Source of the DNA: Williamsia muralis NBRC 105860
Lineage (GTDB): Bacteria; Actinomycetota; Actinomycetes; Mycobacteriales; Mycobacteriaceae
Length of the DNA: 64,000 nucleotides
Assembly (NCBI RefSeq): GCF_001598915.1
Contig: NZ_BDAP01000007.1
Coordinates: forward strand, 1-64,000
Direction of reading: 5' to 3'
Part shown: positions 19,309-32,705 of the stretch, piece by piece
Layout of the letters: each line of letters opens with the position of its first letter
Numbering within the stretch: position 1 is the first letter of the stretch
Notes under the pieces: generated by a model
Told to the model about the DNA's origin: nothing
What the model saw: only the letters and a program-made list of their open reading frames with translations
Databases searched by the model: none
Translations under genes and position numbers: made by a program

Positions 19309-19338
19309 GACGCGCCACCGAGGTGGGGGTGGCGCGTC
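19309..19338 (-). terminator. Hairpin terminator after the thiolase gene
   Basis: An 11-bp perfect stem (GACGCGCCACC with GGTGGCGCGTC) and an 8-nt loop lie 25 bp beyond the thiolase stop on the minus strand. A short T-run (TTT) follows on that strand. It separates the thiolase transcript from the ROK gene. Confidence 0.6.
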
Positions 19339-19363
19339 ATGCGTTGATGGTCGACAACCGAGT

Positions 19364-20542
19364 TCAGAGCCGTTCGATGATCGTTGCGTTGGCGAGCCCA
19401 CCGGCCTCACACATCGTCTGCAGTCCGTAGCGGCCGCCGGTCTGCTCGAGTGCGTTGACCAGGGTGGTCATGATGCGTGCTCCGCTGGCCCCGAGGGGAT
19501 GGCCGAGTGCGATCGCGCCGCCGTTGACGTTGGTCTTGCCGAGATCGGCCCCCGTGTCCTTGGCCCAGGCCAGCACCACAGGTGCGAAGGCTTCGTTGAC
19601 CTCGAACAGATCGATGTCCGAGATCTGCAGACCCGCTCTCTCGAGGACCTTCTGCGTCGCTGGTATGACACCCGTGAGCATGTAGATCGGGTCGGAGCCC
19701 ACCACGGAGAAGCTGTGCAATCGGGCCAGCGGCTTGAGGCCCAGTTCCTTGGCCTTGGCGCTGCTCATGATCAGTACCGCGGCGCTGCCATCGGAGAGTG
19801 GGCTCGAGTTCGCCGCGGTGATCCGCCAGTCGATCTGCGGGAACCGTTCTTTCATGGCCGGGTTGTAGAACGCGGCCTTGAGTCCGGCCAGTTGCTCGAC
19901 GGTGCCGCCGGGGCGGATCATCTCGTCGGTCGACACGCCCGCGAGGGGAGCGATCTCTCGCTCGAATCGGCCGGCCTTGGTGGCCTCGGCGGCCTTCTCG
20001 TGGCTGGCGATCGAGAACTCGTCGAGCTCGGTGCGCGAGAAACCCCAGTCCGCCGCGATCAGTTCTGCGCTGTACCCCTGGGGGATGAACCCTTCTGGGT
20101 AGCGGCGCAAGAGCGCTTCACCGAATGGGTTTGCCCCGTCTCGGACATCGGACAACATCGGTACGCGGCTCATCGACTCCACGCCCGCGGCGACCACGAT
20201 GTCCTGCACACCAGACATCACGGCCTGTGCTGCGAACGAGATGGCCTGCTGGCTCGACCCGCATTGGCGGTTCACCGTGGTGGCCGGAACGGTCTCGGGG
20301 AAGCCCGCGGCGAGCACCGCATTGCGGCTGATGTTCTGGCCCTGCTCGTCGGCCTGTGTGACGTTTCCGGTGATCACGTCGTCGATCAGGGCCGGATCGA
20401 TGCCGGTCTGTTCCACCAGGGACGTGAGGCTGTGGGCCAACATGTCCACCGGATGCACGCCGTGGAGCGCACCGTTTGATTTGCCCTTACCGATCGGGGT
20501 CCTGACTGCCCCGACGATGACAGCGTCGACGATCGAACTCAT
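19364..20542 (-). CDS. Acetyl-CoA C-acyltransferase (thiolase)
   Basis: A 392-residue thiolase, the family's normal length. The nucleophile is Cys94 in NRQCGSSQQA, the catalytic His is His348 in ALGHPLGASGAR and the second acid/base is Cys378 in CEAGGLAN. It could act in beta-oxidation or in acetoacetyl-CoA formation. AGGAGG precedes the ATG on the minus strand. It stands alone behind its own promoter region, with no 3-hydroxyacyl-CoA dehydrogenase beside it. Confidence 0.93.
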   Translation of the reverse strand: MSSIVDAVIVGAVRTPIGKGKSNGALHGVHPVDMLAHSLTSLVEQTGIDPALIDDVITGNVTQADEQGQNISRNAVLAAGFPETVPATTVNRQCGSSQQAISFAAQAVMSGVQDIVVAAGVESMSRVPMLSDVRDGANPFGEALLRRYPEGFIPQGYSAELIAADWGFSRTELDEFSIASHEKAAEATKAGRFEREIAPLAGVSTDEMIRPGGTVEQLAGLKAAFYNPAMKERFPQIDWRITAANSSPLSDGSAAVLIMSSAKAKELGLKPLARLHSFSVVGSDPIYMLTGVIPATQKVLERAGLQISDIDLFEVNEAFAPVVLAWAKDTGADLGKTNVNGGAIALGHPLGASGARIMTTLVNALEQTGGRYGLQTMCEAGGLANATIIERL

Positions 20543-31146: not shown

Positions 31147-31310
31147 GCACTTCCTCCGGTTGTGGTGAGTTCCTCCGGTTGCAGTCGGAGGGTGTGGCTG
31201 GAGTCGGAGGTTGTGGTGGTTGGGTTGGGGTGGGGAGGTGTGTCGGCACTTCCTCCGACTTTGGTGAGTTCCTCCGGTTGCAGTCGGAGGATGTGGCTGA
31301 AGTCGGAGAT
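31147..31310. repeat. Nested-palindrome repeat array, upstream part (two 56-bp units)
   Basis: Two 56-bp units at 31154-31209 and 31253-31308, 99 bp apart. Each begins CTCCG(A/G)(C/T)T, has the centre TTCCTCCGGTTGCAGTCGGAGG, truncated here at its core (CCTCCGGTTG ... CGGAGG), and ends AGTCGGAG, so an outer inverted repeat (CTCCGACT/AGTCGGAG) encloses an inner one. In this half the inner palindrome is imperfect. The units between are G/T-rich on the plus strand. No gene is found in this region. Confidence 0.8.
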
Positions 31311-31396
31311 TGTGGACCTGTGCACACACTCGAAACTATCCACAGAAGGCCCTTTTTCGGCGGTACCTGGTCGGCGGGGGCAACGACGATGGGTAG

Positions 31397-32317
31397 ATGC
31401 AGTCATCGGAGTTCGGGCTCATCCGGCGAAAGACAGTGGTCGAAGGCGGGTTGGGCAGCGACTCACAGCTGAGAGCGGCACGGCGGGCCGGAATCATCCA
31501 GCCGGTTGTCCGCGGCGTTTCGGCACCTGCCGACGGCGTGGCCCTTTCACCGGATGACGAGTACCGCCGGCGGGTGATCGCCGTTGCCGGGCGTTCACGC
31601 GTTCGCGTCGTGAGCCATCAGTCGGCAGCGGTGTGCCATCGGATGCAGCTCTTTCGACCGGACCAGCGATGTGTCCACTTCATTGCGCAGACCAAGGGCA
31701 AGCGGGAGGGCGACGTTCACGTCCACCATGCCCTTCTGGCCGCCACCGACATCGTGCTCATCGACGGTATTCGAGTGACGAGCCGAGCAGTGACGGCGTG
31801 TGATGTGGCGCGGGCGGGAACGTTTGAACAGGCCGTTGCCGCGCTGGACGATGCCCTGAGGTGGGGCGTATCGCTGGCCGAACTACACGCCATCGCGGCG
31901 CGAACCCCACACGCCGCAGGTATCGGGATGTTGCGTCGCGCATTGCTGACGGCTGACGGGGACGCGGAATCCGTTGGTGAATCGGTCAGTCGAGCCTTGA
32001 TGGCGGGTTGGAAAGACATCCCCGTGCCGACGTTGCAGTCGGAGTTCTTCGATGCAGACGGACTGATCGGCCGGACGGATTTTGACTGGGACGGGAAGGT
32101 CGTCGGCGAGTTCGATGGGCGGATCAAGTACCTCGGCACTCTCGCGGAAGGCGAGCGGCCCGAGGACGCGGTGTACCGCGAGAAGTTGCGCGAGGATCGG
32201 CTTCGGGCCATGGGAATCGTGGTGGTCCGGTGGTCGTGGGATGACCTCCTCAATCCAGGTCGCCTGCACGCGAAACTGCGATCCGCGCTGATCCGCGGTG
32301 GCGTAATCCCCGGTTGA
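31397..32317 (+). CDS. DUF559-type protein with AbiEi-like N-terminus (predicted nuclease fold)
   Basis: A 306-residue protein. The N-terminal 40-60 residues (GLGSDSQLRAARRAGIIQ, VVRGVSAP) resemble the winged helix of AbiEi-like/DUF4095-type regulators. Residues about 205-300 match DUF559, a Vsr-like PD-(D/E)xK fold: IGRTDFDWDGK, GEFDGRIKY and REKLREDRLRAMGIVVVRWSWDDL. Acidic residues suitable for metal binding are present, so nuclease activity is plausible but unproven. No neighbour shares its strand operon. It is enclosed by 56-bp nested-palindrome repeats, and its stop codon lies 12 bp from the first downstream copy. Confidence 0.75.
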   Translation: MQSSEFGLIRRKTVVEGGLGSDSQLRAARRAGIIQPVVRGVSAPADGVALSPDDEYRRRVIAVAGRSRVRVVSHQSAAVCHRMQLFRPDQRCVHFIAQTKGKREGDVHVHHALLAATDIVLIDGIRVTSRAVTACDVARAGTFEQAVAALDDALRWGVSLAELHAIAARTPHAAGIGMLRRALLTADGDAESVGESVSRALMAGWKDIPVPTLQSEFFDADGLIGRTDFDWDGKVVGEFDGRIKYLGTLAEGERPEDAVYREKLREDRLRAMGIVVVRWSWDDLLNPGRLHAKLRSALIRGGVIPG

Positions 32318-32321
32318 GGAC

Positions 32322-32705
32322 CCACATCCTCCGACTGTGGTGAGTTCCTCCGGTTGCAACCGGAGGGTGTGGCTGATGTCGGAGGGTTTGCGGGGTGGGG
32401 GCAAGATCCTCCGACTTTGGCTCTCTGGTTCGGGTTCGTTTGCCGCGGTTGGTTGGGCGGGGCTCGCTTCCTCCGGTTGCGGTGAGTTCCTCCGGTTGCA
32501 ACCGGAGGATGTGGCTGGAGTCGGAGGGTTTGCGGGGATGGGGCCTCATTCTCCGACTTTGGCTTGCGGGCGCGGGTCGTTTGTCGCCGTTGGTCGGCGC
32601 GGCTCAGATCCTCCGACTGCGGTGAGTTCCTCCGGTTGCAACCGGAGGATGTGGTTGGAGTCGGAGGGTTTGCACGCACGGGACCCACATACTCCGACTC
32701 CAGCC
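32322..32705. repeat. Nested-palindrome repeat array, downstream part (three full and three partial units)
   Basis: Three 56-bp units lie at 32329-32384, 32471-32526 and 32611-32666, with a period of about 140 bp. The inner 20-bp palindrome (CCTCCGGTTG followed by its exact complement CAACCGGAGG) is perfect in each, at 32347-32366, 32489-32508 and 32629-32648. Partial units starting CTCCGACT occur at 32409, 32551 and 32692. Each full unit is followed by GGTTTGC(G/A) and a G-rich stretch. The roughly 400-bp region holds no gene; open frames on the minus strand here are translations of the repeats. Confidence 0.82.

Follow-up and report, generated by a model that had tools for sequence, protein, structure and literature searches.

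We analyzed a 64,000-nucleotide stretch of the Williamsia muralis NBRC 105860 genome (contig NZ_BDAP01000007.1, positions 1 to 64,000; "the window"), in which an open reading frame (ORF) for a 306-amino-acid protein lies between nested palindromes, and compared this gene, its family and their palindromes across related genomes (handles beginning with G denote genomes and those beginning with L denote loci). Five palindromes, each exactly 56 bp, stand on both sides of the ORF. Each unit consists of four short half-sites, two direct and then two inverted (CTCCGRYT..CTCCGGTTG/CARYCGGAG..RYCGGAG; written >><< below), and we refer to this sequence as type A. Two units lie upstream with a start-to-start spacing of 99 bp, and three lie downstream with spacings of 142 and 140 bp; the ORF begins 88 bp past the last upstream unit, and partial units are present as lone half-sites, CTCCGACT. 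This layout had been described in a first-pass annotation of the sequence, and its coordinates were confirmed (Table 1). The closest named gene, with 96% identity, is found in W. muralis BULT 1.1.

The window protein matches no Pfam family, and NCBIfam gave no credible name. Its N-terminal half is predicted to adopt an AbiEi-like fold and matches the AbiEi models of PADLOC (best E value, 2.6e-11); Pfam AbiEi_4 is matched by 33 of the 46 family members (E ≤ 1). The predicted C-terminal nuclease half is closest to the homing endonuclease I-Bth0305I, and structure prediction backs the Vsr-like nuclease fold that the first-pass annotation had named. Its DUF559 label did not hold up, as DUF559 is not among the 18 Pfam families matched by any of the 46 members at the same threshold. 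Of the 121 genomes sampled from the GTDB family, 106 carry the protein family, counting this one. Among the six ORFs neighboring the window gene, Pfam identified no AbiEii nucleotidyltransferase toxin, methylase or other toxin; five match other Pfam families, and the ORF at 28239-28733 matches none. Three family genes, L230 and L231 in G004 and L228 in G003, lack about 100 to 118 N-terminal residues and keep the nuclease half; L231 has a type-D palindrome at the truncated gene end.

Single-stranded DNA folding of units 1 to 4 (unit 5 was excluded) gave z scores of -2.8 to -4.2. The search for known structured RNA returned only two sub-threshold Rfam matches (24.5 versus 90 bits and 20.4 versus 58), which we took as chance. 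RNA-type covariation in the palindrome was weak, with two-sided change in 3 of 15 pairs and a covariation term of -0.58, suggesting that the palindrome may be kept as DNA.

Palindromes at the window gene and across its family

The type-A unit is dispersed. In the 5.5-Mb genome, the strict >><< pattern has 28 matches on one strand and 24 on the other, at 29 distinct places; the pattern read backwards has none in the same genome, so these copies are not due to chance. A relaxed pattern finds 34 units in the window and 16 fetched loci. These fetched loci, all from this genome, hold 17 further type-A places, and a family gene lies near none of them; conversely, none of the five other paralogues in this genome has a type-A unit beside it. 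A cassette private to the window gene is thus ruled out. The first-pass annotation had named a wide occurrence of the repeat away from such genes as refuting its reading, and this is what is seen for type A; many other family members, however, are bracketed by palindrome types of their own.

Single-strand counts of strict copies are 28, 23, 23 and 19 for four close genomes and 0 to 3 for five other Williamsia genomes; none occurs in 396 other genomes of the order, and the strict unit was seen solely in Williamsia. By simple ORF calls read by eye, 12 of the 18 type-A clusters outside the window locus lie between convergent genes, 6 between codirectional genes and none between divergent ones, against an intergenic background of 59 convergent, 92 codirectional and 40 divergent. 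Several of the places common to G003 and G000 differ in copy number. Between this genome and G003, gene-content indels of ∼4.8 kb (L045, 5426-10239) and ∼1.5 kb (L042, 4034-5553) directly adjoin type-A arrays.

Many family genes sit between nested palindromes of ∼60 to 75 bp, one upstream and one just past the stop codon, which share the design of type A and differ from it in sequence. We examined 57 loci, comprising the best 33 of 73 Williamsia matches (nine genomes), two from named Gordonia and 22 from 22 genomes outside the genus; L061 had been left out beforehand (its contig ends at the match), and L034 and L108 were dropped (flank <150 nt), leaving 55. The upstream and downstream flanks match each other at E < 1e-6 in 36 of these and at E < 1e-3 in 48, and 34 pass both the flank match and the palindrome test (19 of 31 in Williamsia, 15 of 24 elsewhere). 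The 15 passing loci outside Williamsia come from named Gordonia and six further genera, one of which is perhaps itself Gordonia. As a control, 125 ORFs of 200 to 400 amino acids, all from Williamsia regions, were treated in the same way; only three pass at E < 1e-6, and all three are orthologues of the window gene. Mismatched flank pairs pass in 3 of 300 cases, each joining two flanks of one type. Among the Williamsia genes, seven clear palindrome types (A to G) can be read.

Specificity and turnover of palindrome types

Palindromes follow protein lineages. In all 15 protein pairs with at least 80% identity, the palindromes are alike (scores, 69 to 136), whereas those of types B, C and D differ (scores, 14 to 46) despite proteins that are 68 to 76% identical; below 65% protein identity, just one of the 587 pairs scores as high as 50. 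The L105 gene of G002 has a strict type-A unit, yet its score against the window is only 30, the extracted stretch being short. In types E and F, the two copies flanking a gene clearly resemble each other more than they resemble the copies around orthologues; types B, C and D are inconsistent in this respect. Differences fixed between types are densest at residues 51 to 120, which is suggestive at most of where in the protein palindrome specificity resides.

Three palindrome types recur away from family genes. Besides type A, type-B palindromes occupy 11 distinct places in G002, 18 in G007 and 3 in G001, all three genomes having an intact type-B gene. They are missing from G000, G003, G005 and G008, for which the family genes listed include none of that group. 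Counts made with a covariance model are lower bounds (150 of >3,000 candidates scored per genome), and two weak covariance-model matches coincide with type-B copies. In genus g12, the palindrome flanking L131 recurs in five of eight genomes. In G460 and G479 it stands on either side of a family gene; at its other places no family gene lies within ∼1.5 kb.

Relatives differ in whole cassettes, which may be there or not, inverted, or replaced by another. G001, G004, G006 and G007 lack both the gene and its units at the window site, and G002 has a 68%-identical gene that runs the other way and is flanked by a unit on either side. This genome in turn lacks the type-B cassette at L043 and a type-E cassette (Table 1). 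At a third site, the flanks are 96 to 98% identical between this genome and G005/G008, but the gene that they enclose in this genome is only 61% identical to theirs and points the other way; G003 carries there a copy of the G005-type gene without ∼118 N-terminal residues. The guessed G003 regions yielded no orthologue of L039 or L043. Solitary units also vary: one in G003 (L182) is absent from a G000 site at which identity over the adjoining 200-bp stretches is 98.5 and 100%, and a second (L190) is absent from a less clean G000 site. A third G003-only unit was noted at L191.

The window cassette lies between an oxidoreductase-type gene and a proline dehydrogenase (ProDH) gene, which converge toward the site. 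In the same intergenic region of G004, G007 and G006 (L074, L075 and L077), which has no family gene, there is a different long nested palindrome (AATTCGCGCC...), whose G006 copy shows weak similarity to the flanks of L115 (88% over 26 nt). Family genes of several genomes, at L053 (5327-6810), L121, L139 and L145, lie near one well-conserved neighbor (86 to 92% DNA identity), a possible insertion hot spot.

Table 1. Positions of cassette features in the window and of a related empty site
Feature	Position	Strand	Basis or remark
Empty site orthologous to that of a type-E palindrome-gene-palindrome cassette in G001 (L127) and G007 (L128)	19319..19365 (junction 19318/19366)	.	
Type-A unit 1, 56 bp, >><<	31154..31209	.	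Pattern match
Type-A unit 2	31253..31308	.	Pattern match; fold z -4.2
TATCCACAG, DnaA-box-like motif (our label), past the palindrome and ahead of the gene; some family members have it in tandem	31337..31345	+	Motif
306-amino-acid protein; predicted AbiEi-antitoxin-like residues 1-187 and Vsr/I-Bth0305I-like nuclease fold, residues 190-305	31397..32317	+	
Type-A unit 3, 11 bp past the stop codon	32329..32384	.	Pattern match, folding
Half-site CTCCGACT, partial unit	32409..32416	+	
Type-A unit 4	32471..32526	.	Pattern match
Single half-site, partial unit	32551..32558	+	
Type-A unit 5	32611..32666	.	Pattern match
Single half-site, partial unit, adjoining the ProDH 3' end	32692..32699	+	

A second feature of the family lies between the upstream palindrome and the start codon, where TCCACA boxes, which we take to be DnaA-box-like, occur at least once in 34 of 55 loci versus 6 of 125 controls, and at least twice in 16 of 55 loci versus none of the controls; in 14 of these 16, the pair is 18 to 19 bp apart. 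The window gene has one such box, and L113, L126 and L120 are examples with TTATCCACAG-like boxes ahead of the start codon. Control of family genes by DnaA is possible, and the tandem motifs of some members hint that expression is linked to replication initiation.

Known systems and rival explanations

The arrangement is closest to that of REPIN/RAYT systems, or REPtrons, in which, according to two reports (PMC3116915, PMC3733652), a gene is bracketed by palindromes that are dispersed in extragenic space, fall into several types and form tandem clusters. The same holds here: palindromes flank a family gene and recur elsewhere, several distinct types exist, and tandem clusters occur. Unlike in REPIN/RAYT, the protein is AbiEi-like with a predicted Vsr fold; the palindrome is built of four half-sites and measures 56 bp (type A) to ∼75 bp; and the GTAG found at the foot of REP sequences is present in the 14 nt ahead of the first half-site in just 4 of 34 units. 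Type A, moreover, is often found at convergent gene ends. No RAYT was found elsewhere in this genome, the sole genome searched: the Y1 (HUH) transposase model PF01797 has no match; the control was positive in 5 of 14 genomes.

The predicted catalytic fold is shared with I-Bth0305I and other EDxHD homing endonucleases, and the presence/absence pattern recalls theirs, but the empty sites show no cognate palindrome. Unlike those enzymes, the protein is encoded by a free-standing bacterial gene between other genes, is flanked by full palindromes and has an AbiEi-like, putatively DNA-binding half. Vsr, the very-short-patch repair endonuclease, is a mismatch nickase tied to dcm methylation. No dcm-type partner of the kind known for Vsr (1cw0) is found among the neighboring ORFs scanned. 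From the AbiEi antitoxin of type IV toxin-antitoxin systems (6y8q), the family differs in its fusion to a nuclease half, in palindromes that lie on both sides and are dispersed, and in the lack of a nucleotidyltransferase toxin among the six neighboring ORFs. With an unrelated enzyme, no Y1 transposase in this genome and no cognate palindrome at the empty sites examined, we file the system under neither the REPtron nor the homing family.

The main rival to a palindrome-propagating element is one in which the palindromes are operators and terminators only. They would be autorepressor sites of the AbiEi type, and the downstream and solitary copies would be terminators or make up a small regulon. 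Another purpose, such as defense or toxin-antitoxin, would fall to the nuclease half, and spread would be passive. AbiEi does repress its own promoter by binding inverted repeats there (PMC3985639); each of the 34 bracketed loci has one copy upstream of its gene; and the preference of solitary type-A copies for gene ends, above all convergent ones, fits terminators. By itself, however, this explanation gives no account of the second copy past the stop codon and leaves lineage-specific turnover and the inversion or replacement of genes between near-identical flanks unexplained; nor was an AbiEii-type toxin found among the six neighboring ORFs scanned. We regard it as unlikely, although it is the strongest of the alternatives.

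That the genes are passive passengers seems to us quite improbable. Some other transposase or recombination process would place REP-like palindromes in convergent gene ends, and nuclease genes would land in these hot spots and recombine through the repeats. The distance of most type-A units from any family gene and the indels that adjoin type-A arrays agree with this. On the other hand, protein lineages have their own palindrome types on both gene sides in several genera, the 125 control ORFs point to other gene families not being bracketed in this way, and a search of this genome for Y1 transposases, the one class looked for, found none. A restriction-like defense, in which the nuclease cuts invading palindrome-bearing DNA and the chromosomal copies are decoys or protected self sites, is a remote prospect. 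The AbiEi matches of the N-terminal half in PADLOC and the predicted Vsr-like nuclease fold speak in its favor; targets of 56 to 75 bp would be long for such a role, and by Pfam none of the six neighboring ORFs scanned is a methylase or a toxin.

A proposed palindrome-propagating nuclease

We consider it probable that the window gene belongs to an element that resembles REPtrons or homing elements but has an unrelated enzyme, many members of the family traveling with a nested palindrome of their own. In the mechanism that we regard as most likely, the AbiEi-like half would recognize the four-half-site palindrome, and the Vsr-fold half would cut at or near it. Repair of the break could then copy the palindrome into the 3' ends of further genes, in some cases along with the entire palindrome-gene-palindrome cassette. 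As the palindrome is nearly symmetric, a cassette might enter or flip either way; it could be lost by recombination between its flanking units, and solitary palindromes might persist because they are usable as hairpins at gene ends. More tentatively, with our confidence falling somewhat short of even, we propose a previously unrecognized class of self-spreading genes that is present in several genera of actinobacteria. Their product, a fusion of AbiEi-like and Vsr-like nuclease halves, would recognize, cut and so propagate its own palindrome, the gene being carried between two copies either way round and specificity switching with divergence.

Several observations weigh against such an element and mechanism. 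The cognate palindrome was not found at the empty sites examined, and homing in the strict sense is thus not demonstrated; likewise, no clean target duplication is seen at two solitary-unit polymorphisms (L190 versus L198 and L182 versus L200). Type-A loci are common to G000 and G003 at 12 of 15 G003 places, suggesting that solitary units move slowly. Palindromes also occur without their gene: G004, G006 and G007 hold two to three strict type-A copies each and no type-A gene at the window site, and type-B palindromes lie at 7 places in G004 and 14 in G006, where no intact type-B gene was recognized. Seven of the 55 loci (L032, L107, L115, L117, L122, L134 and L148) have no shared flank at E < 1e-3, and at L149 the shared stretch is >300 nt away from the gene. 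Finally, many loci are orthologues, and independent cases are accordingly fewer than the loci counted.

The first-pass interpretation is thus supported in part. Its likeness to REP sequences around RAYT genes extends to the wider family, which is often bracketed by gene-specific palindromes, and its notion that the protein has palindromic sites of its own is in keeping with that layout and with the presence, absence, inversion and replacement of cassettes between relatives. These two points and the Vsr-like fold are supported; the occurrence of type A at many places with no family gene nearby and the lack of a DUF559 match speak against it. In the open-access literature, no description of a link between these proteins and palindromes was found among the matches listed, as judged by titles and the beginnings of abstracts. 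If the proposal is true, REP-like palindromes with no apparent transposase may be partnered by a nuclease from an altogether different class, and the family would offer a natural series of protein/long-palindrome pairs with switching specificity. It would also help to explain gene presence/absence and inversion at convergent gene ends, and would give a testable role to a protein family found in most of the genomes sampled.
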